From Aequorivita marisscotiae (GTDB lineage: Bacteria; Bacteroidota; Bacteroidia; Flavobacteriales; Flavobacteriaceae), in NCBI RefSeq assembly GCF_029814825.1, contig NZ_CP122379.1, positions 372,001 to 436,000 of the forward strand: DNA of 64,000 nucleotides. The letters are read 5' to 3'. A program made the translations under genes and the position numbers. The number at the start of each line of letters is the position of its first letter. Position 1 is the stretch's first letter. Positions 8,573 to 27,097 of the stretch are shown here, one piece after another. The notes under the pieces are model-generated. The model saw only the letters and a list, made by a program, of their open reading frames with translations. It made no database searches and was not told the origin of the DNA.

Positions 8573-11107
8573 TTATTCTTTATCTTTTATTTTTATTTTC
8601 ATTCCTTCAACATCCTTTAGTTGGGCTCGAACTTCTTCTTCGGTACCGGTGAAGGTTTTGGTTTCAACTGTTTCTTCGCCATTAACGGTTTTAGTGATGG
8701 TTACATTGGCAGTTACTTGGTTGTTGTTATCGTTTTTCAACATTTCAACTACAGTTTCAGTTTTATCTTTAAGATTTTCACCTTCAACAATCGTGCTTCC
8801 AGTTTCAATATATTGAATTTGCTTTTCGGTTAAAACAGTTTTGTTTCCTTCGGCATTAATAAAGTAAACTTCCTCCGTAGTAGTTTCCGCAGCCGTTACG
8901 GTATTGGTATGGCCACCGAGAATAGGCGCAATAACAAGTCCGATTAGGCAGGTAAGTTTAATTAAGATATTCATAGACGGTCCAGAAGTATCTTTAAAAG
9001 GATCACCAACGGTATCGCCAGTTACAGCAGCCTTGTGCGCATCACTACCTTTGTAGGTCATTTTGCCATCGATCATAACACCTGCTTCAAAAGATTTTTT
9101 AGCATTATCCCAAGCGCCACCAGCGTTATTTTGGAAAATAGCCCAAAGTACACCACTTACGGTTACCCCTGCCATATAACCTCCGAGCATTTCGGCGATA
9201 GCCATATTGTTCATTCCAAAAATCATAGGTACAAAGGCGATAACAATAGGAAAACCAATTGTCATAATACCTGGTAACAACATTTCTCTTAACGATGCTT
9301 TCGTTGAAATTGCCACACATTTATCGTATTCTGGCTTGCCCGTACCTTCCATAATTCCAGGAATTTCACGGAACTGACGTCTTACTTCATTAACCATTTG
9401 CATGGCAGCTTTACCTACGGCATTCATTGCCATTGCCGAAAATACAACGGGAATCATCCCACCTACAAAAAGCATGGCCAGTACGGGAGCTTTAAAAATA
9501 TTAATTCCGTCAATTCCTGTAAAAGTTACGTAGGCAGCAAAAAGCGCCAATGATGTTAATGCCGCCGAAGCAATGGCAAAGCCTTTACCTGTTGCAGCCG
9601 TAGTATTACCTACAGAATCTAAAATATCGGTACGTTCACGTACAATTGGGTCTTGTTCGCTCATTTCGGCAATTCCACCTGCATTATCGCTAATTGGTCC
9701 GAACGCGTCTATAGCAAGTTGCATAGCTGTTGTAGCCATCATAGCAGAAGCTGCAAGCGCAACTCCGTAAAAACCAGCCAGTGCATACGAAGCCCAAATA
9801 GCACCTGCAAAAAGTATTACTGAAGGAAAGGTAGAAATCATTCCAGTAGCTAAACCCGCAATAATGTTTGTTCCTGCTCCAGTAGAAGATTGTTGTACAA
9901 TTTTAAGAATTGGTTTTTTACCTAGACCCGTGTAATATTCGGTAACCGATGAAATTCCAGCGCCCACTACCAAGCCAACCAAGGTGGCATAAAACACTCT
10001 CATAGATGAAATTTCTTGTAGTCCTTCACCGAAGAAACTCATATTCATAGTTTCGGGAAGCATCCATTTTACTAGCGCAAAACACGAAATAGCTACCAAT
10101 ATAATTGAAACCCAGTTACCAATATTTAAGGCGCCCATAACTTGAGCTTCCTTTGCATCATTATTTTTTATTTTCACCAAGGTTGTACCTATTACAGAAA
10201 TAATAATACCCACTCCTGCAATGGCCATTGGCAATAATATTGGGCCAATACCACCAAAAGCATCGGTTATTGCACCGCCCATATCTTTAATTACGTAATT
10301 CCCTAAAACCATAGCGGCCAATACCGTTGCTACGTAGCTCCCGAATAAATCGGCACCCATTCCTGCAACGTCTCCTACGTTATCTCCAACGTTATCGGCG
10401 ATAGTTGCCGGGTTACGAGGATCGTCTTCTGGAATTCCTGCTTCAACTTTTCCTACTAAGTCGGCACCTACGTCGGCAGCTTTCGTATAAATACCCCCAC
10501 CAACTCTTGCAAATAGTGCAATAGATTCTGCTCCAAGTGAAAAGCCAGCTAATGTTTCAAGAACAATGGTCATAAGTTCCTGAGGCGCCAAGGTAACTCC
10601 ATCTATAGTAGTTGGCTCCCAAACCCCATTCATAAAAACGTGAAAGAAGATGATAAAAAACAAGGTAAGACCTAAAACGGCTAAACCTGCAACACCCAAC
10701 CCCATTACGGTACCACCACCAAAAGATATTTTTAGTGCTTCTGGCAAGCTTGTACGCGCAGCTTGTGTTGTACGAACATTTGTTTTGGTCGCTATTTTCA
10801 TCCCCATATTTCCAGCTAAGGCCGAGAAAAATGCTCCGAAAATAAAAGCAATTACAATTAAGATATGTGTTGTGGGGACCACGTATGATACAAATGCCAA
10901 AGCAACGCTCACTACAAGAACAAACACCGCTAATAATCTGTATTCGGCATTTAGAAAAGCTAAAGCACCTTCGTAGATGTGGTCGCTAATTTCTTTCATT
11001 TTACCGTCCCCTGAATTTTGTTTTAATACCCAAGAACGTTTAACGGCCATAAAAAGCAAGCCTACAATCGCCATCGCTATTGGCGCATAAATCATCATTG
11101 ATTCCAT
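8573..11107 (-). CDS. hppA: Membrane-bound pyrophosphatase (ion pump), K+-dependent type
   Basis: 844 residues with about 16 membrane segments. The pyrophosphate site is clear: [18 protein letters not shown], then [15 protein letters not shown], and a second acidic cluster near [14 protein letters not shown]. The segment [10 protein letters not shown] has Ala where K+-independent enzymes have Lys (GNTTKA), so this should be a K+-dependent enzyme. Those pump Na+, H+ or both, and which one cannot be decided here. It couples hydrolysis of pyrophosphate to ion export across the inner membrane. An extra C-terminal tail of about 112 residues (from about 733, after [12 protein letters not shown]) is hydrophilic and beta-rich, and is not part of the standard pump of about 700-770 residues. 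A -7 box and a strong terminator bracket it as a single-gene unit. Confidence 0.95.
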
Positions 11108-11841: not shown

Positions 11842-12282
11842 GTCTTTTTTATTGGTATTTTTTAGTAGTGAGTAGTTAGTAATGGTTATTGAGGTTAGAA
11901 TTTTTAGTGGATACTTTTTTATTATTTTCCATATCCAATCGGTATTTTGATTGCTCATTTCTGCGCATTTTCTACTATTTTCTAATTTGTAGGAAAAAAG
12001 AGCCATTTTCTTACAATTTAATACAGTATCTATGGCTTTGGTAGGGCTTTGCGGTCTAGTATATGAAAAGTAGGGCGGTTGATAAGCACCCATTTTCGGA
12101 TTTATACTGAGCCATATTTTTCATTTTATTTTTATCTTTTTTCTAAAATACAAATTAAAAATGTGGCGGACTTTGCAAAAACGCACAAACCTTTGATTTA
12201 GCAATTATCGTCCTATTTTTTATATACATCTTTGTTATCTGGCTGGCGTTTCTCCGCAAACTTGCTAGCGTTGGCAATTCCG
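11842..12282. other. AT-rich intergenic stretch between ppa and the restriction-modification genes
   Basis: About 440 bases with no coding potential that I can support. A reading frame on the minus strand (11743-12093) overlaps ppa and its promoter and looks random. This is the left flank of the restriction-modification block; I see no integrase, tRNA or clear attachment-site duplication in it. Confidence 0.5.
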
Positions 12283-13464
12283 CTATGTCATTAAATTATA
12301 ACTTTCACTTGGCGGGAACAGTAATTCAATTCCTTTAGGTCTGATTTTAAATAACGGACCTTTTTCAACCACTTTCCCTTTTGAGTTTCGCTTAATTAAA
12401 TGGTCAAGAGTTATGATACCTTGTTCAATTAGTAAGTCAAATTGTGAGGTAATTGGCTTTTTTGTGTGTTCTACCAGCTTATATTGAAAATGTTCACGTT
12501 CATCAATCCTTATACTTTCAGCTTCTACCCAAAATGTTTCTTTATGTTTTGATTTTAATCGGTTATGAAGTTTGTCTAATGTCCACACTACAAAATCTCC
12601 AACCTCTGGCTTATCAGAGTTTTCAATTAGTTGTTTTATTTCGCTATCAATTCTTAAATTCAAACCTTGCGAGTTTCTTGTAATTGCTGAAACTGTGCAA
12701 TAAAGTTTAAAATCATCATCACGTTCATATCCAAAATTGTCAAGAATTTCAGCTGAACTTTTAAACTTACTTAATTTCCAATCTGGAACTTGTGCGAATA
12801 GATTTTTTCGATTCGTTCTGCTGTTTCTAAACGATTTAAGTTCAATTCCTTTATAATCTGGTTGTTTTGAAGAGTTAATGTCAATTCCGAGTGCTGTCTC
12901 AAGTGTCCTACCTACAGAAGTGTCAGCGTCAACCATTGAAGGAATTGGGCCAGCATTTGCTATTTTTCTTAACATAGCCAAAAGCTCAAAAGCGACTTCG
13001 TTCTCAGTTGTGTTAATTGCATTAATTAACTCTTGAAATGGATTCAGAATTGAAGAATAAATTAATTCCTTGATATTTAATTTTGTCAAGTTAAAAACTT
13101 GAAAATTATCGTTGTAAAAAGTAATTCCAATAATATCGTTAGGGTCAGCTACTTTTGTTAAACCATAAAACCAAATTCTTGGGTCTCCTTTTTTAGTTGA
13201 AGGACGATATAGAGATGCTTTTGATTTTATAATCTTAAAACCAGTATGAATAATTGCTGGAATCATTACTTTGCTCTCTGTACCTTGATTCTGCAATTCA
13301 TAATCGTGAATGTTCTCACTTTTTAAATAACTACGAACAGAACCAGTCGCATCCATAATGGATTTTTTTAATCCGGTTTCGGTTGGCTCAATTAAAGTAA
13401 GAGAAACTTGGTTTTTGGTCAGTAATTTTATTTTTTCTTGTTCGTCGTCTGTAAGTTTTCTCAC
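12283..13464 (-). CDS. Type II restriction endonuclease, MvaI/BcnI-like
   Basis: 393 residues starting with GTG at 13464. This codon overlaps the methyltransferase stop (GTGA, 4 bases), so translation is coupled and the nuclease is made after the methyltransferase. Residues 185-230 hold the PD-ExK core: TLETALGI, then PD (202-203) and ELK (208-210) in QPDYKGIELKSF, followed by NLFAQVPDWK. This order is typical of the MvaI/BcnI family, whose characterised members cut CCWGG or CCSGG as monomers. An N-terminal domain of about 170 residues (TGLKKSIMDATGSVRSYL) and a C-terminal extension surround the core. The true recognition site cannot be derived from sequence. Nuclease downstream of methyltransferase is a safe order for a mobile R-M unit. 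Confidence 0.85.
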   Translation of the reverse strand: MRKLTDDEQEKIKLLTKNQVSLTLIEPTETGLKKSIMDATGSVRSYLKSENIHDYELQNQGTESKVMIPAIIHTGFKIIKSKASLYRPSTKKGDPRIWFYGLTKVADPNDIIGITFYNDNFQVFNLTKLNIKELIYSSILNPFQELINAINTTENEVAFELLAMLRKIANAGPIPSMVDADTSVGRTLETALGIDINSSKQPDYKGIELKSFRNSRTNRKNLFAQVPDWKLSKFKSSAEILDNFGYERDDDFKLYCTVSAITRNSQGLNLRIDSEIKQLIENSDKPEVGDFVVWTLDKLHNRLKSKHKETFWVEAESIRIDEREHFQYKLVEHTKKPITSQFDLLIEQGIITLDHLIKRNSKGKVVEKGPLFKIRPKGIELLFPPSESYNLMT

Positions 13465-15668
13465 TTGATATGTTTTAAAATTTCACTTGCTACTGCTCTT
13501 GCTAATAATGGTGGAACAGCGTTACCCACTAAAGTGTATTGTGGCACTTCCGTTTTTCTATTATTTCCACCTGTTGAGCGTTTGCCTTGGAATACAAAAG
13601 AGTCGTCAAAGGATTGTAAACGTGCCATTTCTCTAACTGTTAAAGACCTTGGCGAATTGTAATGAATATAATCGTCTGCGATGGTCATTATTGTAGAGCT
13701 TTGTTCATCTGGTTTTAAAACATTATAATTTCGCTTGTTTGTCGAAAGACCTAATTTTTCTAATTCTGGTTGCGCTTTTTTATAATCTCCATTTTTTAAA
13801 ATGACACCAAGTCTTTCAATAACGGTTTCGTTTTGGTTACTTGTTTTGTGATTGTTTAGTATGTCAAAATACTTTTCTCCATTTTCAAGTGCTTCACTAT
13901 TCCTTACATAAAACGGCTTAGTTTGTGGTTTGAAACGTTCAATCAATCGACCTTTTTTTGACCACTCAGCAAATGATTTTCCGCCTTTTGAAATTGGCTT
14001 TCCATCAATTCTACGTTTTTTCAAAAGTTTAGCCATTTTTTTGGCTGTTCCATTGTATTGAGCTGAAATGTCAACCAATTCGTAACGATGGGCTTCTTGA
14101 TTGTTGCCTATAAAATCCAAATCATACAAAGCTTCAAAAATGGTAACTTTTTCTTCTTCTGAAACTGTTGCTGGAATTTCAGAAATATACTTTTGGTCTT
14201 TACGACAACCTATAAAAAGTACTCTTTCTCGATTTTGTGGAACACCATAATTTGATGCGTTAGCAACAAATGGCTGTTCTATTTTGTAAAGCCTAATGCT
14301 CTCAAGAATTATTTCTAACTCTTTATTCTGTTTGGTATTACAATGCGATTTTAATATTTCAATGGATTCATCAAAAGACGTTGTGTAGATTTTCAAAGAT
14401 GTAATAATGTCTTCACAATCTTTTTTATGAGTACTTGGTACTTTAAGAATTTTGAAAGCATCTTCAATTTTTGAAATTACATTTTCAGAACTGATTTCTG
14501 TAAGGAAATCTGTGAACGCATTTGCGAAATTGTCGCTGTCAATATTGCAAAAATCTTTCTCTTTTATAATATCACGTTTGAGTTTTTCCCATTCTTTTGT
14601 TCTAGCCAAAAGGTTAAAACCGTGACGAATTGTGTTGATGTTTTCGTCCGTTTTACTCGTTTTGTAATCAGCAATTTTTGGCGTTAACTTTCTAAATCTA
14701 TTTTCTACAAAAGTTATGAAATCAGCTTTTCCAGTATCTTTATCTTTTTCAAGTAGTTTTTCTAGTTCTACTCGTTTTATTATACTGTCAAAAAGAAACG
14801 AATTAGATTCTTTTCGTATTTTTTTAATGAATGAAATGAGTAATGGAATTTCATTTGTGTCAACAATAGAGTTAATCTCTTTGATGATTAGTTCTTTTAT
14901 TTTGCCTTTTTCTTTTGTTAAAATTCCCTTTACATTTTCCATAACGAAGTATTTTGGTTGTAAAACCTTAATTACTTCTAAATAATGAGAGAATAAATCA
15001 TCTTTTTTGTCAAACTTTTTTCTTTTCCCTGCAAGACTAAAACTTTGACAAGGTGGTCCACCACAGACAACATCAATTTGACGACCGTCAATTTTTTTTA
15101 ATAAATTATCTAAAAAGTCTGGTTCTGTAATATCTTGTTTTAGAAATTCTGTATCTAAACCTAATTGGTGGTTGTATCGAACAACGTGAGTTAATTCGCA
15201 ATTTTCATTAATATCGTTGGCAACCACGAAATCAAAGAATTTGTTGTTGTGCTCAGCTTGCAAAAATCCCTCACTAAAACCACCTGCTCCTGCAAATAAG
15301 TCTACAAAAGTGAAGGGCTTTCCATAAAGAGAGACCTGTTCTTTTATAATATTTACATTGCTATTCGCTTTATAGTTTTCTATATGCTCGTTCAATAAAC
15401 TTTTTACTTCGTCCTGAACAAAGGTTTTTTTGTTAGAATGGTGCAGAAGTTCGTCCGCTCGTTCTCTTAGAAAATCCAAATAATGGTTGATTTCGTGAGA
15501 TTCTACACTTAATCCAATAGCTTTTTGTTTGGATTTATTGAAGTTTTTCAGTTTTATTTTTTGTCCCGTTGAAACCTTAACTTGACTTCCGTTACAGTTT
15601 ATTCGTAAATGAATTGGTGTAAACCCTTTTTTGTCTGGTTTGTCTAGATAAAAATTAATTGTTGCCAT
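13461..15668 (-). CDS. DNA (cytosine-5) methyltransferase with N-terminal integrase-type arm domain
   Basis: 735 residues, about twice the usual size. Core motifs are complete: motif I FVDLFAGAGGFSEGF (121-135), motif IV GGPPCQSFSLAG with catalytic Cys207, motif VI ENV (244-246), motif VIII NYGVPQNRERVLFIG (473-487), and motifs IX/X in SLTVREMARLQSF and LVGNAVPPLLA. Two additions stand out. Residues 1-80 (INFYLDKPDKKGFTPIHLRI, then KVSTGQKI) resemble the arm-binding domain at the N-terminus of Bacteroidota tyrosine recombinases. A helical, Lys/Glu-rich insert of about 210 residues (about 255-465) separates motifs VI and VIII, and a further long stretch (510-650) contains the expected target-recognition region. 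It protects the site cut by the co-transcribed nuclease. Three acggac repeats around its promoter suggest autoregulation. Confidence 0.93.
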   Translation of the reverse strand: MATINFYLDKPDKKGFTPIHLRINCNGSQVKVSTGQKIKLKNFNKSKQKAIGLSVESHEINHYLDFLRERADELLHHSNKKTFVQDEVKSLLNEHIENYKANSNVNIIKEQVSLYGKPFTFVDLFAGAGGFSEGFLQAEHNNKFFDFVVANDINENCELTHVVRYNHQLGLDTEFLKQDITEPDFLDNLLKKIDGRQIDVVCGGPPCQSFSLAGKRKKFDKKDDLFSHYLEVIKVLQPKYFVMENVKGILTKEKGKIKELIIKEINSIVDTNEIPLLISFIKKIRKESNSFLFDSIIKRVELEKLLEKDKDTGKADFITFVENRFRKLTPKIADYKTSKTDENINTIRHGFNLLARTKEWEKLKRDIIKEKDFCNIDSDNFANAFTDFLTEISSENVISKIEDAFKILKVPSTHKKDCEDIITSLKIYTTSFDESIEILKSHCNTKQNKELEIILESIRLYKIEQPFVANASNYGVPQNRERVLFIGCRKDQKYISEIPATVSEEEKVTIFEALYDLDFIGNNQEAHRYELVDISAQYNGTAKKMAKLLKKRRIDGKPISKGGKSFAEWSKKGRLIERFKPQTKPFYVRNSEALENGEKYFDILNNHKTSNQNETVIERLGVILKNGDYKKAQPELEKLGLSTNKRNYNVLKPDEQSSTIMTIADDYIHYNSPRSLTVREMARLQSFDDSFVFQGKRSTGGNNRKTEVPQYTLVGNAVPPLLARAVASEILKHIK

Positions 15669-15676
15669 AATTATTC

Positions 15677-15712
15677 ACGGACGTTTTTACGTACACGGAC
15701 AAATTTACGGAC
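15677..15712 (-). promoter_or_regulatory. Putative operator/promoter of the R-M operon: three acggac repeats around a -7 box
   Basis: The hexamer acggac occurs in the same orientation at 15677-15682, 15695-15700 and 15707-15712 (spacing 18 and 12 bases). On the minus strand TAAATTTG (15700-15707) is a perfect TAnnTTTG -7 box lying exactly between the last two repeats; the first repeat falls in the leader. The methyltransferase ATG is at 15666-15668. A protein bound to the repeats would block this promoter. Confidence 0.5.
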
Positions 15713-15770
15713 ATTTTTTTAAATTCCTATTTAATTCTGATTTTTGTTCGGATTAAGCGTTGGAAAAAGG

Positions 15771-15815
15771 CAAGCTCTTTTATTTTGTGAGGCACGAGCA
15801 AAATAAAAGAGCTTG
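15771..15815. repeat. Perfect 17-bp inverted repeat upstream of the R-M operon
   Basis: caagctcttttattttg (15771-15787) is repeated as its exact reverse complement at 15799-15815, with an 11-base loop (tgaggcacgag). A short T run follows on the minus strand only (plus-strand aaaaa at 15764-15768), so it could end minus-strand transcripts, but no gene ends nearby. A boundary structure of the inserted R-M block is an alternative. Confidence 0.7.
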
Positions 15816-16446
15816 ACTATGCGGCTGAATTCGCTTGCAGGTAACTATGGGGTATCCGTGGGCGAGGGTTTTTGGAGCAGATATTATACGTTTTTGGATT
15901 TAAAAATGCTGGGGGTAGTTATAGGGATTTTACGGGAAAACGAATTTTAAGTTGGTATTGAGCAATGTTGGTTTTGAGGGTTTTGAGATATTATAAGCCT
16001 TTAAATTTTAGTTTAAAAAAATAAATGATTTTTGGTTTCTTGAAAAAAATTAATCTTTTCAATTAATGCTAAATTACCATTACAAAAAGAATTTTTCATT
16101 ATTTATGCACCAGAGTGCCGAAGCTATAAATGGTGCTATTAGAATTTCAAATCAATTTAACTCTTTTCAAAATCAAAATAGTTTTACAAACTCTAAATAT
16201 CGATTCTTAAAGAGGCGGTCTTCCCACTTATATTGCTTTATTAAAAATATGTATAAAACCCACGCTGGCTACCGTTTGCAACTTGTAGTTCCAAACAACC
16301 CCCAATCTCATCTTATAATATTTACACTAAATTCAGTCTGTATATTAAAATGATTGCCATGTAAGTTATTACATCGAGCATTTCAAAATAAAACAACTTA
16401 CAAAACGCTCAAAAAGATTACATTCAAAAAGCCAAAACACTTCTAT
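15816..16446. other. Intergenic stretch without a supportable gene
   Basis: About 630 bases of non-coding-looking DNA between the R-M block and the MORN protein gene. A 95-codon frame at 16066-16353 (plus) has no ribosome site, a biased Asn/Ser/Phe/Tyr composition and no recognisable motif; I do not call it. The patchwork composition would fit decayed insertions at the edge of a mobile R-M unit. Confidence 0.45.
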
Positions 16447-21118: not shown

Positions 21119-24100
21119 CTATTCCTTTATAAGTCTCATGGTTATTTCACCATTAGCGCCTTTAATTTTTACGTAGTAAGAAGCAGCTGCAAGTTGATCT
21201 ACGTTTATAGTTTTTACATTGCCCATTCCACGAAGGTCTGCACTTTGTACCAATCTACCTCTTAGGTCGTAAATTTCCAGTCTTTCCAATTCTAAACTCT
21301 GCGGATTGCTGATGTTTAAAATATTGTTGGTTGGAACTGGATACATTTTAACGCTTCCAAGGTTTTGGTGATTGTCTTCTGCACCAAGTACGCTTTCAAC
21401 AGTTAATTCAAATTCGCAAGTACTTGTATTACCATATGCATCGGTTGCAGTGAAAGTAATAGTGTGTACTCCATCAGGAAGCGGCGTGCCTGCTACTGGC
21501 GATTGCGTTGTATTTGTAACTGGATCTGTACAGTTGTCTATTGCTGTAGCTTCGCCCGTTGCAAAATAATCTGGAAGTATATAGAATATATTTCCTGGTC
21601 CTGGATCTACTGTTTGATCTACTGGACACGTAATTACCGGTGCAAGGTTGTCTACCACAGTAACTTCTGCTGTACAAGATGCAAGGTTGCCATTTACGTC
21701 AATTGTAAACACCTGAACCGTTACTGGCGCACCAATATCTGAACAATCAAAATCGGTAATATCTACTGCCGAAGTAAAGATTCCACAAGCATCATCATTA
21801 GAAGCTATCACATCACTTGGGTCAAGAATAGCTGTTCCGTCTGCACCAAGCTCTAATGTGAAGTCTTGACAAACTAATACCGGACTCGTATTGTCTTCTA
21901 CTGTTACCGTAGCGGTACAAGTTGACGTATTTCCGTTTACATCGGTTACCGTCAATGTTACAATATTGTCACCAACATTTGAACAATCAAAAGTATCCAT
22001 ATCTAAATCATAACTCGCAATGCCACAAGCATCGGTGCTTCCGCCGTCAACGTCTATTCCTGCGATGGTTACAGTTCCTGTTGCATCGAGTACAACTGTA
22101 ATATCTTGACATACTACCATTGGTGCAGTTACATCTTCAACAGTTACAATGGCAGTACAAGTTGAAGTATTTCCGTTTACATCGGTTACTGTTAAAATAA
22201 CGTTGTTGTCGCCAACATCAGAACAGTCAAAAGTATCAACATCTATCGATAGGCTACCAATACCACACTGGTCTGTACTTCCTCCATCAACATCGGCTGC
22301 AGTAATAGTTGCATTACCAGCTGCATCAAGTTGGATAGTGATATTCTGACATACTGCTACCGGAGCTTCATTATCCGTTACGGTAATAGTAAAACTGCAG
22401 GTGCTGGTGTTTCCATTTACATCGGTCGCGGTGAATTCAATGGTGTTTACGCCAACCGGGAAACTGCTTCCGCTTGGGTCACCCATTGTTTGGACGACGC
22501 TTGCAATGCCGCAATTATCAAATGCTACCGGAGTAACAAAGATTACCGTTGCAAAACAATCTCCCGCATCTGTGTTGGTGGTTATGTCTGCCGGGCAGAT
22601 AATTGTTGGTACTTCATTGTCCTCAATTGTAATAACTGTAGTACAAGTAACAGTTTGACCGTTGCCATCATCTACTGTCCAAACTACTGTAGTTACTCCT
22701 TTTGGAAGCACTTCGCCAGCCATAGTAGTTGTTCCATTATAATCGTTGGTTATTGAACCATCAGGACAGTTATCTGTAAAAGTTGCATCAAATTCAGTTC
22801 CTATTACTGTGTATTCACATAAACCTGGTTCGGTATCTCTTGAAGCATTTGGTACGCAAGTGATAACCGGATCTTCGTTGTCTTCCACAGTGATTACCGT
22901 AGTACAAGTAGCAGTTTGACCGTTTCCATCATTCACTGTCCAAATTACAGTAGTTACTCCTTTTGGAAGAACTTCTCCAGCCATCGTAGCTGTGCCGTTA
23001 TAATCGTTTGTAATTGAACCATCAGGACAGTTGTCTGTAAATGTTGCATCAAATTCAGTACCTACAATTGTGTAGTTACATAAACCTGGATCGGTATCTC
23101 TTGTTGCATTTGGTACGCAAGTGATAACCGGATCTTCGTTGTCTTCCACAGTGATAACCGTAGTACAAGTAGCGGTTTGTCCGTTGCCATCATCTACCGT
23201 CCAAATTACAGTCGTTACTCCTTTTGGAAGGACTGCTCCCGCCATAGTAGCCGTACCGTTATAATCGTTTGTAATACTTCCATCAGGACAATTGTCTGTG
23301 AAAGTGGCATCAAACTCAGTACCTACAACTGTGTAGTTACATACTCCTGGATCGGTGTCTCTTGTGGCATTAGGCACACATGTAATTACTGGGTCTTCGT
23401 TATCTTCAACGGTGATTACTGTAGTACATGTAGCGGTTTGACCGTTACCATCATCTACCGTCCAAACTACCGTAGTTACTCCTTTTGGAAGAACTTCGCC
23501 AGCCATAGTAGCTGTGCCGTTATAGTCGTTAGTTATTGAACCATCAGGACAGTTATCTGTAAAAGTTGCATCAAATTCAGTTCCTACTACTGTGTATTCA
23601 CATAAACCTGGATCGGTATCTCTTGTGGCATTTGGCGCGCAAGTGATAACCGGCGCTTCGTTGTCTTCAACGGTGATTACTGTAGTGCAAGTAACAGTTT
23701 GACCGTTGCCATCATCTACTGTCCAAACTACTGTAGTTACTCCTTTTGGAAGCACTTCGCCAGCCATAGTAGCCGTGCCGTTATAATCGTTTGTAATACT
23801 TCCATCAGGGCAGTTATCTGTAAAAGTTGCATCAAATTCAGTTCCTACTACTGTGTATTCACATAAACCTGGGTCGGTGTCTCTTGTGGCGTTTGGTACG
23901 CACGTGATAACTGGGTCTTCGTTGTCTTCAACCGTAATTACCGTAGTACAAGTAGCGGTTTGACCGTTGCCGTCATCTACTGTCCAAATTACAGTCGTTA
24001 CTCCTTTTGGAAGTACTTCTCCAGCCATAGTAGCCGTTCCGTTATAATCGTTTGTAATGCTTCCATCTGGACAATTGTCTGTAAACGTAGCATCAAACTC

Positions 24101-27097
24101 AGTTCCTACAACGGTGTATTCACATAGACCTGGTTCGGTATCTCTTGTGGCATTTGGAACGCAAGTAATAACCGGCGCTTCGTTGTCTTCAACCGTAATT
24201 ACCGTAGTACAAGTAGCGGTTTGACCGTTGCCGTCGTCAACTGTCCAAACCACAGTCGTTACTCCTTTTGGAAGAACTTCTCCCGCCATAGTAGCCGTGC
24301 CGTTATAGTCGTTAGTAATACTTCCGTCAGGACAGTTATCTGTAAATGTTGCATCAAATTCAGTTCCTACTACTGTGTAGTTACATAAACCTGGATCGGT
24401 ATCTCTTGTGGCATTTGGTACGCACGTAATAACCGGATCTTCGTTGTCTTCAACGGTAATTACCGTAGTACAAGTTGCCGTTTGACCGTTACCATCATCT
24501 ACTGTCCAAATTACAGTCGTTACTCCTTTTGGAAGCACTTCGCCAGCCATAGTAGCTGTGCCGTTATAGTCGTTGGTAATTGTGCTACTCGTACAATTAT
24601 CGGTAAAAGTTGCATCAAATTCAGTTCCTACTACTGTATAACTACATACTCCCGCATCGGTATCTCTTGTGGCGTTTGGTACGCAGGTAATTACTGGTGC
24701 TTCATTATCTTCAATTGTGATAACAGTTTGGCAGAAAACAACCGGATTCGTGCCATCAAACACTGCCCAAACAACTGTTGTGCTTCCTATTGGGAAAACA
24801 GCTCCTGCCAATGAAGTAGATCCGTTGTAATTATTTCCTATGGTACCTCCACAATTATCGTTAAATGTAGCGTCAAACTCGGCACCTACCACGGTATAAT
24901 CACAAACTCCCGGATCGGTATCTCTAGTTTGATTTGGTACACAAGTAATTACTGGCGATTGATTATCAACCACTGTAATATCGGTAGAACAAGTAGCAGT
25001 TTGACCGTTACCGTCATTGGCTGTCCAAACCACCGTAGTTGTACCACTCGGGAATATTTCGCCCGCTAGGGTTGCCGTTCCGTTATAATCATTTGTAATG
25101 GTTCCGCCAGTACAATTATCTGTAAAAGTGGCGTCAAACTCTGTTCCTACAACAGTATAACTACATACGCCAGGATCGGTATTTCTTGAGTCGTTTGCAA
25201 CACAAGTGATTACAGGAGCTTCGTTGTCTTCAACGGTGACAATAGTTGTACAAGTAGAAACATTTCCATTTACATCTGTTACAGTCAAAGTAACATTGTT
25301 TGGACCTATATCAGCGCAAGTGAACATGTTTGGCGAAACAGAGAGTGAAGAAATTCCACAGGCATCTGTTGAGCCACCATCAACATCGGCCCCCGTAATT
25401 GTTACATTTCCGGTAGCGTCTAGTTGCGCAATAAAAGGCTGACATACAGCTGTAGGTGAAACATTATCTTCAACTATTACTGTAGAAGTACAAGTTGAAC
25501 TGTTGCCATTTACATCGGTTACCGTTAGGGTTACCGTATTTGGACCAACATCTGCACATGTAAAATTATTAGGACTCACCGACATACTGGCAATTCCACA
25601 ATTATCTGTGCTTCCACCATCAATTGTCGCAGGATCTAATATTGCTTGACCATTTACATCCAACTGTATTACAGTAGGTGCAGTTGCAGTCCAAACATAG
25701 TTTATTTTGCTAAGATCGGTGTGATCCCTTACATAAGCAGATACCGCAGAATCATAGCCACCTGGATTATTATAGCCAGGAGCTCCAGTATCTAAACTAT
25801 AATCTTCGGCATTGATTACAAAACCAGTTCCCCAGCTATCAGTCCAACCAGTGTTGGTAATGGTGCTAGGATCGGTAGTATTTGGATCAACAGAGATTGC
25901 ATAATCTGATGCATTTCCTCCAAAAATTAAAGCAGCTGCTTCTTGAGGGCTATAAACGGAAGGATTAGTATTCCAGGTAGGTCCATCACTAACTCTATAA
26001 GATCCTACGAATATAGGCGCAGATCCAAGACATACGGCAGTCGGCGCTTCGTTGTCTTCAACGGTTACATCAAAACTACAAGTTTCGGTATTTCCATCGC
26101 TATCAGTTACTTCAAAAGTATTAGTTGTTGTACCAACTGGAAACCGAGATCCAGAAGGAAGCCCTGCCGTTTGGGTAGGCGTTAACGGCCCGTCTTCGGC
26201 ATCATTGGCGGTTACCGTATAAGTTACTATTGCACCACATTCATTCGCATCATTATCAACAGTAATATCTCCAGGGCAGGAAATAGTGGGTGGTGTATTT
26301 GGTTTTACCAAAAACTCAACTTCATTTTCAATAAGATCTAAATATGAATTAAGGTCCATATCTCGCGCCGCAAATCCATGAAATATACTATTGCCTCCAT
26401 TCCCCAAAACTATTGCTGCTTCATTTGTTGTTGGAGAAGACACAAAACCACCGAGAGCAGTAGCTCCTGCAGCTGGCTCTAAGCGATCACCGTTATCACC
26501 ACCGCCATAATCGCCAATTGTGGCTAAGCCACTTACAGTATTAGGATTATTAAAAATAGGATGTGCAGCATCCCATACTGAAACCGAAATTGGGGTATTA
26601 AATGAAATTGTATTACTTACTTCTACTATCGATTGTACGGCAGGGTCATTATTTAAATTCCAATAAGACATTATTAACTTTCCCCCACTTGCAAGATAAT
26701 TGGATAGAGCCGTTACTTCATTTGGTGAAAGATTACTTGCTTGTATTTGCAGAATTACAAGATCCCAAGGTTGAGAAGGAAGTAAAACATCCAAATTTCC
26801 AGCACCGTTATCTTCAGTAACAGTAAATCCTATACTCGTTAATAAAGGACTGAGTTCAACACCAGATCCAAACTGCATATAATCTAGCACAATCGATCCT
26901 GGAGGAACAAGGGCCGATGTAGTACCAATTGAAGAATCTTGACGCATCTGCAAAAGAGATTCTTGAACTGTAGTTTGAAAATTTAAAGGAAGATTGACAT
27001 TTGTCGGTCTACTCTCAGAGTTAGATATCGTTTGTGCCGTTACGACACCTGCAATACACAAAAGCATCACAGAAAGAACCAAGGTAATTTTTCTCAT
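21119..27097 (-). CDS. Giant T9SS-secreted protein with GATase-like domain and HYR-type repeats
   Basis: 1992 residues. A signal peptide (1-21) is followed by a domain at about 48-265 with alternating strands and helices (DLVILQIQASNLSPNEV, GGKLIMSYWN, HGFAARDMDLNSYLDLI) that looks like a ThuA/class-I-amidotransferase-like fold. A first HYR domain (about 270-352), a unique insert (about 353-470) and further Ig-like units come next. Ten 87-residue repeats (about 624-1495) start PVITCVPN.TRDTDPG and end TTVITVEDNE; the last eight are nearly identical. More HYR/Cys-rich units (LDATGTVTI...DVDGGSTDACGI) and a T9SS type A sorting domain (VKMYPVPTNNILNIS... to ITMRLIKE) end it. It is a probable cell-surface adhesin or matrix protein exported by T9SS. 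Paired Cys in each unit suggest disulphides. It has its own terminator. Confidence 0.93.
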   Translation of the reverse strand: MRKITLVLSVMLLCIAGVVTAQTISNSESRPTNVNLPLNFQTTVQESLLQMRQDSSIGTTSALVPPGSIVLDYMQFGSGVELSPLLTSIGFTVTEDNGAGNLDVLLPSQPWDLVILQIQASNLSPNEVTALSNYLASGGKLIMSYWNLNNDPAVQSIVEVSNTISFNTPISVSVWDAAHPIFNNPNTVSGLATIGDYGGGDNGDRLEPAAGATALGGFVSSPTTNEAAIVLGNGGNSIFHGFAARDMDLNSYLDLIENEVEFLVKPNTPPTISCPGDITVDNDANECGAIVTYTVTANDAEDGPLTPTQTAGLPSGSRFPVGTTTNTFEVTDSDGNTETCSFDVTVEDNEAPTAVCLGSAPIFVGSYRVSDGPTWNTNPSVYSPQEAAALIFGGNASDYAISVDPNTTDPSTITNTGWTDSWGTGFVINAEDYSLDTGAPGYNNPGGYDSAVSAYVRDHTDLSKINYVWTATAPTVIQLDVNGQAILDPATIDGGSTDNCGIASMSVSPNNFTCADVGPNTVTLTVTDVNGNSSTCTSTVIVEDNVSPTAVCQPFIAQLDATGNVTITGADVDGGSTDACGISSLSVSPNMFTCADIGPNNVTLTVTDVNGNVSTCTTIVTVEDNEAPVITCVANDSRNTDPGVCSYTVVGTEFDATFTDNCTGGTITNDYNGTATLAGEIFPSGTTTVVWTANDGNGQTATCSTDITVVDNQSPVITCVPNQTRDTDPGVCDYTVVGAEFDATFNDNCGGTIGNNYNGSTSLAGAVFPIGSTTVVWAVFDGTNPVVFCQTVITIEDNEAPVITCVPNATRDTDAGVCSYTVVGTEFDATFTDNCTSSTITNDYNGTATMAGEVLPKGVTTVIWTVDDGNGQTATCTTVITVEDNEDPVITCVPNATRDTDPGLCNYTVVGTEFDATFTDNCPDGSITNDYNGTATMAGEVLPKGVTTVVWTVDDGNGQTATCTTVITVEDNEAPVITCVPNATRDTEPGLCEYTVVGTEFDATFTDNCPDGSITNDYNGTATMAGEVLPKGVTTVIWTVDDGNGQTATCTTVITVEDNEDPVITCVPNATRDTDPGLCEYTVVGTEFDATFTDNCPDGSITNDYNGTATMAGEVLPKGVTTVVWTVDDGNGQTVTCTTVITVEDNEAPVITCAPNATRDTDPGLCEYTVVGTEFDATFTDNCPDGSITNDYNGTATMAGEVLPKGVTTVVWTVDDGNGQTATCTTVITVEDNEDPVITCVPNATRDTDPGVCNYTVVGTEFDATFTDNCPDGSITNDYNGTATMAGAVLPKGVTTVIWTVDDGNGQTATCTTVITVEDNEDPVITCVPNATRDTDPGLCNYTIVGTEFDATFTDNCPDGSITNDYNGTATMAGEVLPKGVTTVIWTVNDGNGQTATCTTVITVEDNEDPVITCVPNASRDTEPGLCEYTVIGTEFDATFTDNCPDGSITNDYNGTTTMAGEVLPKGVTTVVWTVDDGNGQTVTCTTVITIEDNEVPTIICPADITTNTDAGDCFATVIFVTPVAFDNCGIASVVQTMGDPSGSSFPVGVNTIEFTATDVNGNTSTCSFTITVTDNEAPVAVCQNITIQLDAAGNATITAADVDGGSTDQCGIGSLSIDVDTFDCSDVGDNNVILTVTDVNGNTSTCTAIVTVEDVTAPMVVCQDITVVLDATGTVTIAGIDVDGGSTDACGIASYDLDMDTFDCSNVGDNIVTLTVTDVNGNTSTCTATVTVEDNTSPVLVCQDFTLELGADGTAILDPSDVIASNDDACGIFTSAVDITDFDCSDIGAPVTVQVFTIDVNGNLASCTAEVTVVDNLAPVITCPVDQTVDPGPGNIFYILPDYFATGEATAIDNCTDPVTNTTQSPVAGTPLPDGVHTITFTATDAYGNTSTCEFELTVESVLGAEDNHQNLGSVKMYPVPTNNILNISNPQSLELERLEIYDLRGRLVQSADLRGMGNVKTINVDQLAAASYYVKIKGANGEITMRLIKE
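22612..24704. repeat. Tandem array of eight near-identical 261-bp units inside the giant T9SS gene
   Basis: Landmark text such as tactccttttggaag recurs every 261 bases (for example near 22695, 22956 and 23217), equal to 87 codons, so copy number can change without breaking the frame. Two more diverged units extend the array to about 25226. Confidence 0.9.

Follow-up and report, generated by a model that had tools for sequence, protein, structure and literature searches.

Organization of the locus

We analyzed a 64,000-nucleotide stretch of the Aequorivita marisscotiae genome (contig NZ_CP122379.1, positions 372,001 to 436,000; hereafter the window), and more specifically a C5 DNA methyltransferase gene and the short direct repeats that precede it. 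The gene (13461..15668, on the reverse strand like all features of this locus) starts with ATG and encodes 735 residues, in which PF00145 (E = 3.6e-55) is matched together with PF17293. The C5-methyltransferase domain occupies residues 119-735 (13464..15314) and contains a long insertion, PF00145 being matched in two stretches. The conserved C5-methyltransferase motifs are visible in the translation, and we take them to be those named DLFAGAGG, PCQS, ENV, and GNAVPP. The next gene (12283..13464, 393 residues) encodes a restriction endonuclease of the MvaI/BcnI family (PF15515, E = 3.3e-80; R.MvaI, E = 8e-7), and its GTG start shares 4 bp with the methyltransferase stop, as read from the sequence and the open reading frames. 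The two genes constitute a Type II restriction-modification operon.

The leader, read on the gene strand from 15712 to 15677, is GTCCGT-AAATTT-GTCCGT-GTACGT-AAAAAC-GTCCGT, which corresponds to two tandem 18-bp units, each made of a pair of hexamers 12 bp apart. The first unit contains R1 (GTCCGT, 15707..15712) and R2 (GTCCGT, 15695..15700), and the second contains R3 (GTACGT, 15689..15694, replaced by GTCCGT or GTCCGC in 17 of the 76 fused loci described below) and R4 (GTCCGT, 15677..15682). Between R1 and R2 lies a -7 promoter box, TAAATTTG (15700..15707), sharing one base with each of them. It fits the flavobacterial -7 box, described as TAnnTTTG, at -12 to -5 (PMC9723704). Transcription would start near 15695 and, therefore, the four repeats would span about -17 to +19. 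Judging by sequence alone, the repeats extend over both the -7 box and the site where transcription is predicted to start, and may thus represent an operator over the gene's own promoter.

The original prediction for this DNA had pointed to three ACGGAC copies no more than 50 bp before the ATG (15668), two of them flanking the -7 box. All three are there (15712-15707, 15700-15695, and 15682-15677), with the box between the first two; the present analysis adds a fourth repeat, the spacing of 12 bp, the nuclease gene whose start overlaps the methyltransferase stop, and a geometry resembling that found at integrase genes. The motif GTCCGT-N6-GTCCGT occurs once in the window, compared to none in 100 dinucleotide-preserving shuffles, and the exact pair occurs once in the 3.45-Mb home genome. 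A general regulon built on the repeat was considered and rejected, given this single exact pair and, with up to two mismatches, 75 places compared to 134 for the reversed control. A sigma-70 scan returned 9 sites, compared to 9.7 in shuffles, this promoter type not being suited to Bacteroidota.

An integrase-type arm domain at the N-terminus

The first 103 residues of the methyltransferase (15360..15668) appear to form an integrase-type arm DNA-binding domain. PF17293 (Arm-DNA-bind_5) matches residues 9-74 with 27.3 bits in the whole protein and 33.4 bits in residues 1-116, above the curated cut-off of 22.6 bits, and it is matched by all 29 representative homologues scanned, with E values of 0.01 or better. 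A profile built from 29 methyltransferase arm domains (A1) matches integrase-type genes in the window's own family, with E values down to 3.3e-14, and hhalign aligns the methyltransferase arms with 16 integrase arms over 98 columns, with a probability of 99.3% and an E value of 1.2e-20. The likeness of residues 1-80 to a tyrosine recombinase arm domain, suggested beforehand, is thus supported at the sequence level, and by homology to a DNA-binding domain family the protein probably carries an N-terminal DNA-binding extension. No catalytic recombinase domain was found in it in Pfam, NCBIfam, and PHROGs scans.

AlphaFold predicts strands at residues 3-8, 16-25, and 28-39 and helices at 55-76 and 85-103, with a mean predicted local distance difference test score (pLDDT) of 81.4 and a predicted template modelling score of 0.73. 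The arm topology described for the Tn916 group consists of three strands and a helix (PMC8138268), with which the predicted fold of residues 1-103 is compatible. Residues 104-117 (15318..15359) form a low-confidence linker, with pLDDT values under 50 at 104-113 and 115-117. Solved relatives of the arm domain were also looked for by sequence; the five matches, with E values of 0.039 or worse, were unrelated molecules.

Conservation of the repeats among fused homologues

A scan of genome contigs yielded 80 loci. Four of them, in which the gene start lies outside the locus (L070, L073, L077, and L079), and one without the arm domain (L080) were set aside, leaving 75 loci and, with the window, a set of 76 fused loci. 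R1 and R2 are found upstream of all 76 genes, 73 times exactly and three times with one changed base, so the expectation that homologous fusions keep the repeats holds for close and distant homologues alike. With one mismatch to GTCCG tolerated, 72 of the 76 loci have the complete set of four repeats; three of the remaining four have R1 and R2 only, and one lacks R3. The TAnnTTTG box is intact in 70/76, and the repeat site begins 37-51 bp before the ATG in 75/76 (30 bp in the other one). The records of these loci are named Flavobacteriales, Bacteroidales, and Chitinophagales, among others.

We compared pairs among 29 representatives at 90% identity, for the 36-bp block, its flank, and the four-fold sites. 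Pairs with 80-89% protein identity (n = 50) show identities of 0.91, 0.47, and 0.44, respectively, those with 70-79% (n = 207) 0.87, 0.38, and 0.38, and those with 60-69% (n = 121) 0.85, 0.36, and 0.35. At 50-59% (n = 28), apparently the pairs with L076, the values are 0.60, 0.38, and 0.37. L076 is the most distant locus (32% arm identity), and it keeps R1 and R2 but not the second unit. The first spacer remains promoter-like (TAnnTTTG) and the second is A-rich, which indicates that the two spacers are differently constrained.

Another search, in 249 genomes, found 12 fused genes, all with R1 and R2; eight of these (window included) repeat members of the 76, and four are new. When 395 genomes of the phylum were searched with the methyltransferase core, five matches were obtained (the window, G148, G164, G466, and G135), each of them a fused gene preceded by the first pair. 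L249, from another family, keeps the pair with one changed base, with no second unit seen. Phylum-wide, the exact GTCCGT-N6-GTCCGT occurs somewhere in 77 of 296 genomes; out of ten such stretches inspected, picked mainly for their AT-rich spacers, two lie upstream of fused methyltransferases and eight do not.

The site follows the methyltransferase

By tblastn, 59 of the 75 loci have a nuclease homologue immediately after the methyltransferase, and in nine (L001, L030, L031, L033, L053, L054, L062, L063, and L076) the two genes are separated by about 0.5 to 2.2 kb. The remaining seven gave no tblastn match to the nuclease, and in one of them the locus stops shortly behind the methyltransferase. 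The six others (L055, L059, L065, L067, L068, and L072) extend 4.4 kb or more beyond the gene start, and all of them keep R1 and R2, five together with the second unit. The site is therefore associated with the methyltransferase and not with the nuclease.

The locus set aside for its lack of an arm domain, L080 (record named Kiritimatiellae), encodes a 68%-identical methyltransferase, next to a nuclease homologue, with an unrelated N-terminus that has no significant match to either arm profile. No GTCCG occurs on either strand in the 1 kb upstream of this methyltransferase, so in this one case the arm domain and the repeats appear to be absent together. Three relatives among the best 120 of 6016 were counted as arm-less, namely P0121 (L080), P0122, and P0123; P0137, P0161, and P0199, which also lack a Pfam arm call, were not counted, their start lying inside the linker or the domain, and they look like shortened genes. 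When the three arm-less sequences were analyzed with 32 fused ones (window included) in a midpoint-rooted tree, their clade fell among the fused sequences. Support is moderate (67) for the node that links this clade to L050, and fused sequences are found on both sides of well-supported splits.

With the core of L080 as query, no plasmid or phage relative was found at E 1e-40. A viral copy of the methyltransferase was also considered, with L080 as query; seven stretches fit a pattern and none was confirmed.

Direct repeats at integrase genes

All ten integrase-type proteins scanned combine PF17293 with PF13102 and the catalytic PF00589. We collected 51 arm-domain integrase loci, from which the fragment L085 had been excluded beforehand, and removed 19 near-duplicates, leaving 32; the short open frames L113 (92 residues) and L177 (119 residues) were retained. 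We searched the 300 bp before each start codon for identical 8-mers that contain three or more G or C and recur at a spacing of 11 or 12 bp. Such repeats are present in 16 of these 32 best-scoring loci, compared to an average of 0.06 in first-order shuffles, 0 in coding sequence, and 2 in the region 600-900 bp upstream. Repeats of this kind include GTTGTACCT, spaced by 11 bp, and GGTGCGTAA, CGGTGCCC, and GGTGACCT, spaced by 12 bp. Therefore, at the sequence level, the 12-bp geometry of the methyltransferase repeats resembles the geometry that accompanies PF17293 in recombinase loci. In L109, L113, L115, and L181, the repeats stop a few bases before a -7-like box, TATCTTTA; they lie further upstream in others.

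Pairs of GTTGTACC spaced by 11 bp are found in the integrase leaders of L090, L105, L109, L110, L111, L113, L115, and L181, with two pairs each in L090 and L110; these are likely arm sites. The home genome contains two integrase-type genes with the arm domain, equal in both score and length and 64 kb apart (L081 and L082, G000:C1 near 2397071 and 2461359), perhaps parts of duplicated elements. Two viral contigs, L214 (near 8984-9073) and L197 (near 9145), carry tandem 10-bp repeats, TTGTCCGTAT, with no arm-domain match in the stretch. A direct integrase donor of GTCCGT was looked for among 34 integrase-type loci and 52 viral stretches found by pattern, and none was identified.

Surroundings of the operon

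The operon belongs to a unit common to many relatives as a block (12052..15845, reverse strand). BLASTN similarity to many loci starts near 15845 and stops near 12267 or 12052, and pieces of the 12040-12290 element have further copies elsewhere in L008, L011, L016, and L025. The recurring ends and the extra copies suggest that 12052-15845 could be a mobile cassette with a repeated end. Elsewhere in the window, 21119-27097 encodes a 1992-residue protein with many near-identical tandem repeats, presumably HYR-like, and a C-terminal sorting-type tail.

Interpretation

We consider it very probable that an integrase arm module, i.e., the domain with its direct-repeat site, has been captured as an autorepressor of this restriction-modification operon. 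The homology of the domain, a site that is conserved and placed over the promoter, the absence of this site together with the domain in one case, and the 11-12-bp spacing in common with integrase loci all point in this direction, and from them we infer binding, repression, an effect on the nuclease, the roles of the two pairs, and the direction of descent. In such a mechanism, the arm domain would bind the four direct repeats at 15677-15712. As the methyltransferase rises it would fill these repeats, and RNA polymerase would be excluded from the -7 box and the start site. This negative feedback would hold transcription of the methyltransferase low, and likewise that of the overlapping nuclease gene behind it. 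R1 and R2 would represent the minimal operator, strengthened by R3 and R4, and in a new host without the methyltransferase the operator would be free. Both the arm domain and the repeat geometry would descend from the arm-site module of an integrase. The recruitment of a recombinase arm domain advanced in the original prediction is thus supported, as a prediction.

Several observations weigh against this interpretation. No recombinase arm domain is found among the 50 structural matches listed for the arm domain, and a -33 element is not obvious, a TTG 19-20 bp from the box being counted 15 times in the 76 loci. Upstream DNA could be read for only one arm-less relative (L080), and if the tree is rooted on the arm-less stem, the absence in this clade is ancestral and not a joint loss. 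The integrase loci were the best-scoring ones and not a random draw, 16 of the 32 have no 11-12-bp repeats by the strict 8-mer test, and the repeats of the others may serve recombination and not transcription. No same-strand GTCCG pair within 30 bp occurs at the 34 integrase-type loci (2.2 to 3.3 kb), and the 52 viral stretches with TTGTCCGTA-N1-4-TTGTCCGT have no arm-domain match. Finally, for the self-repressing integrase IntS, PMC2951348 reports that repression persisted when arm sites were mutated singly and that, for the one site overlapping the -10 box, an effect on repression could not be told apart from one on promoter activity.

A different possibility is that another, host-encoded regulator binds the repeats and that the arm domain does another job, e.g., anchoring the methyltransferase on DNA. 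In its favor, the link between domain and site is a predicted one, and some restriction systems do have a separate repressor that binds direct repeats, such as RptR (PMC12255303). We nevertheless regard a host regulator as quite unlikely, since the site stays with the gene in records as diverse in name as Flavobacteriales, Bacteroidales, and Chitinophagales, occurs as a single exact pair in the home genome, is missing in the one arm-less locus that could be read, and is kept even in the six loci with no nuclease homologue downstream.

Binding of the arm domain might also activate the promoter, or activate and then repress it as concentration increases, as described for C proteins in PMC12707154. 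Two repeat pairs that are unequally conserved could indeed give a two-step occupancy. Nevertheless, all four repeats would lie over the -7 box and the start, at about -17 to +19, whereas activators would usually be expected to bind upstream, which makes activation quite unlikely. That the domain and the repeats serve recombination, as a relic of, or an accessory to, integration of the restriction cassette, is very unlikely, even if the usual targets of arm domains are arm sites close to recombination sites (PMC8138268) and the operon is a block common to different surroundings, because the methyltransferase itself carries no recombinase domain, the site begins 37-51 bp before the ATG in 75 of the 76 loci and overlaps the -7 box, and a relic would not retain 85-87% identity next to flanks that have saturated.

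We thus favor capture of the arm module as an autorepressor. We would give slightly better than even chances to a broader proposal, namely that the whole arm module left recombination and became the autorepressor of an operon since widespread in Bacteroidota, and that PF17293 integrases are commonly self-repressed through the same geometry. If the capture is real, the role of a recombinase arm domain would extend to transcriptional repression in a protein that is not a recombinase, a widespread restriction-modification family would have a precise, testable operator, and the arm sites of PF17293 integrases could be predicted from the 11-12-bp-spaced repeats near their genes.

Comparison with known systems

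The operon is similar to MvaI/BcnI restriction-modification systems in having a PF15515 nuclease beside a C5-methyltransferase; such systems recognise CCWGG or CCSGG. The arm domain on the methyltransferase may set it apart from them. Compared to PF17293 tyrosine recombinases, the protein has a homologous N-terminal domain, and the 11-12-bp direct repeats upstream of half of the integrase loci are a further likeness; nevertheless, the recombinase core is absent here, and the repeat is GTCCGTAA, whereas it is, e.g., GTTGTACCT or GGTGCGTAA in integrase loci.

Repression by a C5-methyltransferase of its own gene has precedents. PMC3978073 describes it for M.SsoII, M.Ecl18kI, M.EcoRII, M.MspI, M.ScrFIA, and M1.LlaJI, in agreement with the examples (M.EcoRII, M.MspI, and M.SsoII) invoked in the original prediction, and the review PMC12707154 also covers such enzymes. 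According to PMC3978073, M.SsoII represses through its N-terminal domain and a site distinct from its methylation site. M.SsoII combines a 15-bp near-palindrome with a small regulatory domain, whereas the Aequorivita protein combines an integrase arm domain with direct repeats spaced by 12 bp. The regulatory domain of M.SsoII is a helix-turn-helix.

Small repressors offer a second comparison. RptR is reported to repress a restriction-modification promoter by binding three direct repeats (PMC12255303), and repression of such promoters, predicted here, is described for RptR and C proteins in PMC12255303 and PMC12707154. RptR is a separate small protein, as C proteins are according to PMC12707154, whereas here the putative repressor is a domain of the methyltransferase itself.

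The closest parallel among integrases is IntS of KplE1, which, as described in PMC2951348, represses its own promoter, the latter overlapping the arm sites. Both cases involve an arm-bearing protein with arm sites, putative in our case, overlapping its own promoter, repression being described for IntS and predicted here; the difference is that IntS is a recombinase, whereas the effector here would be a methyltransferase without a recombinase domain. Among the titles listed in our searches of the open-licence PubMed Central literature, we found no integrase arm domain described as the autorepressor of a methyltransferase, or as a repressor outside any recombinase. Self-repressing C5-methyltransferases and self-repressing integrases are thus both known, and what would be new is an integrase arm domain in that role for a methyltransferase.

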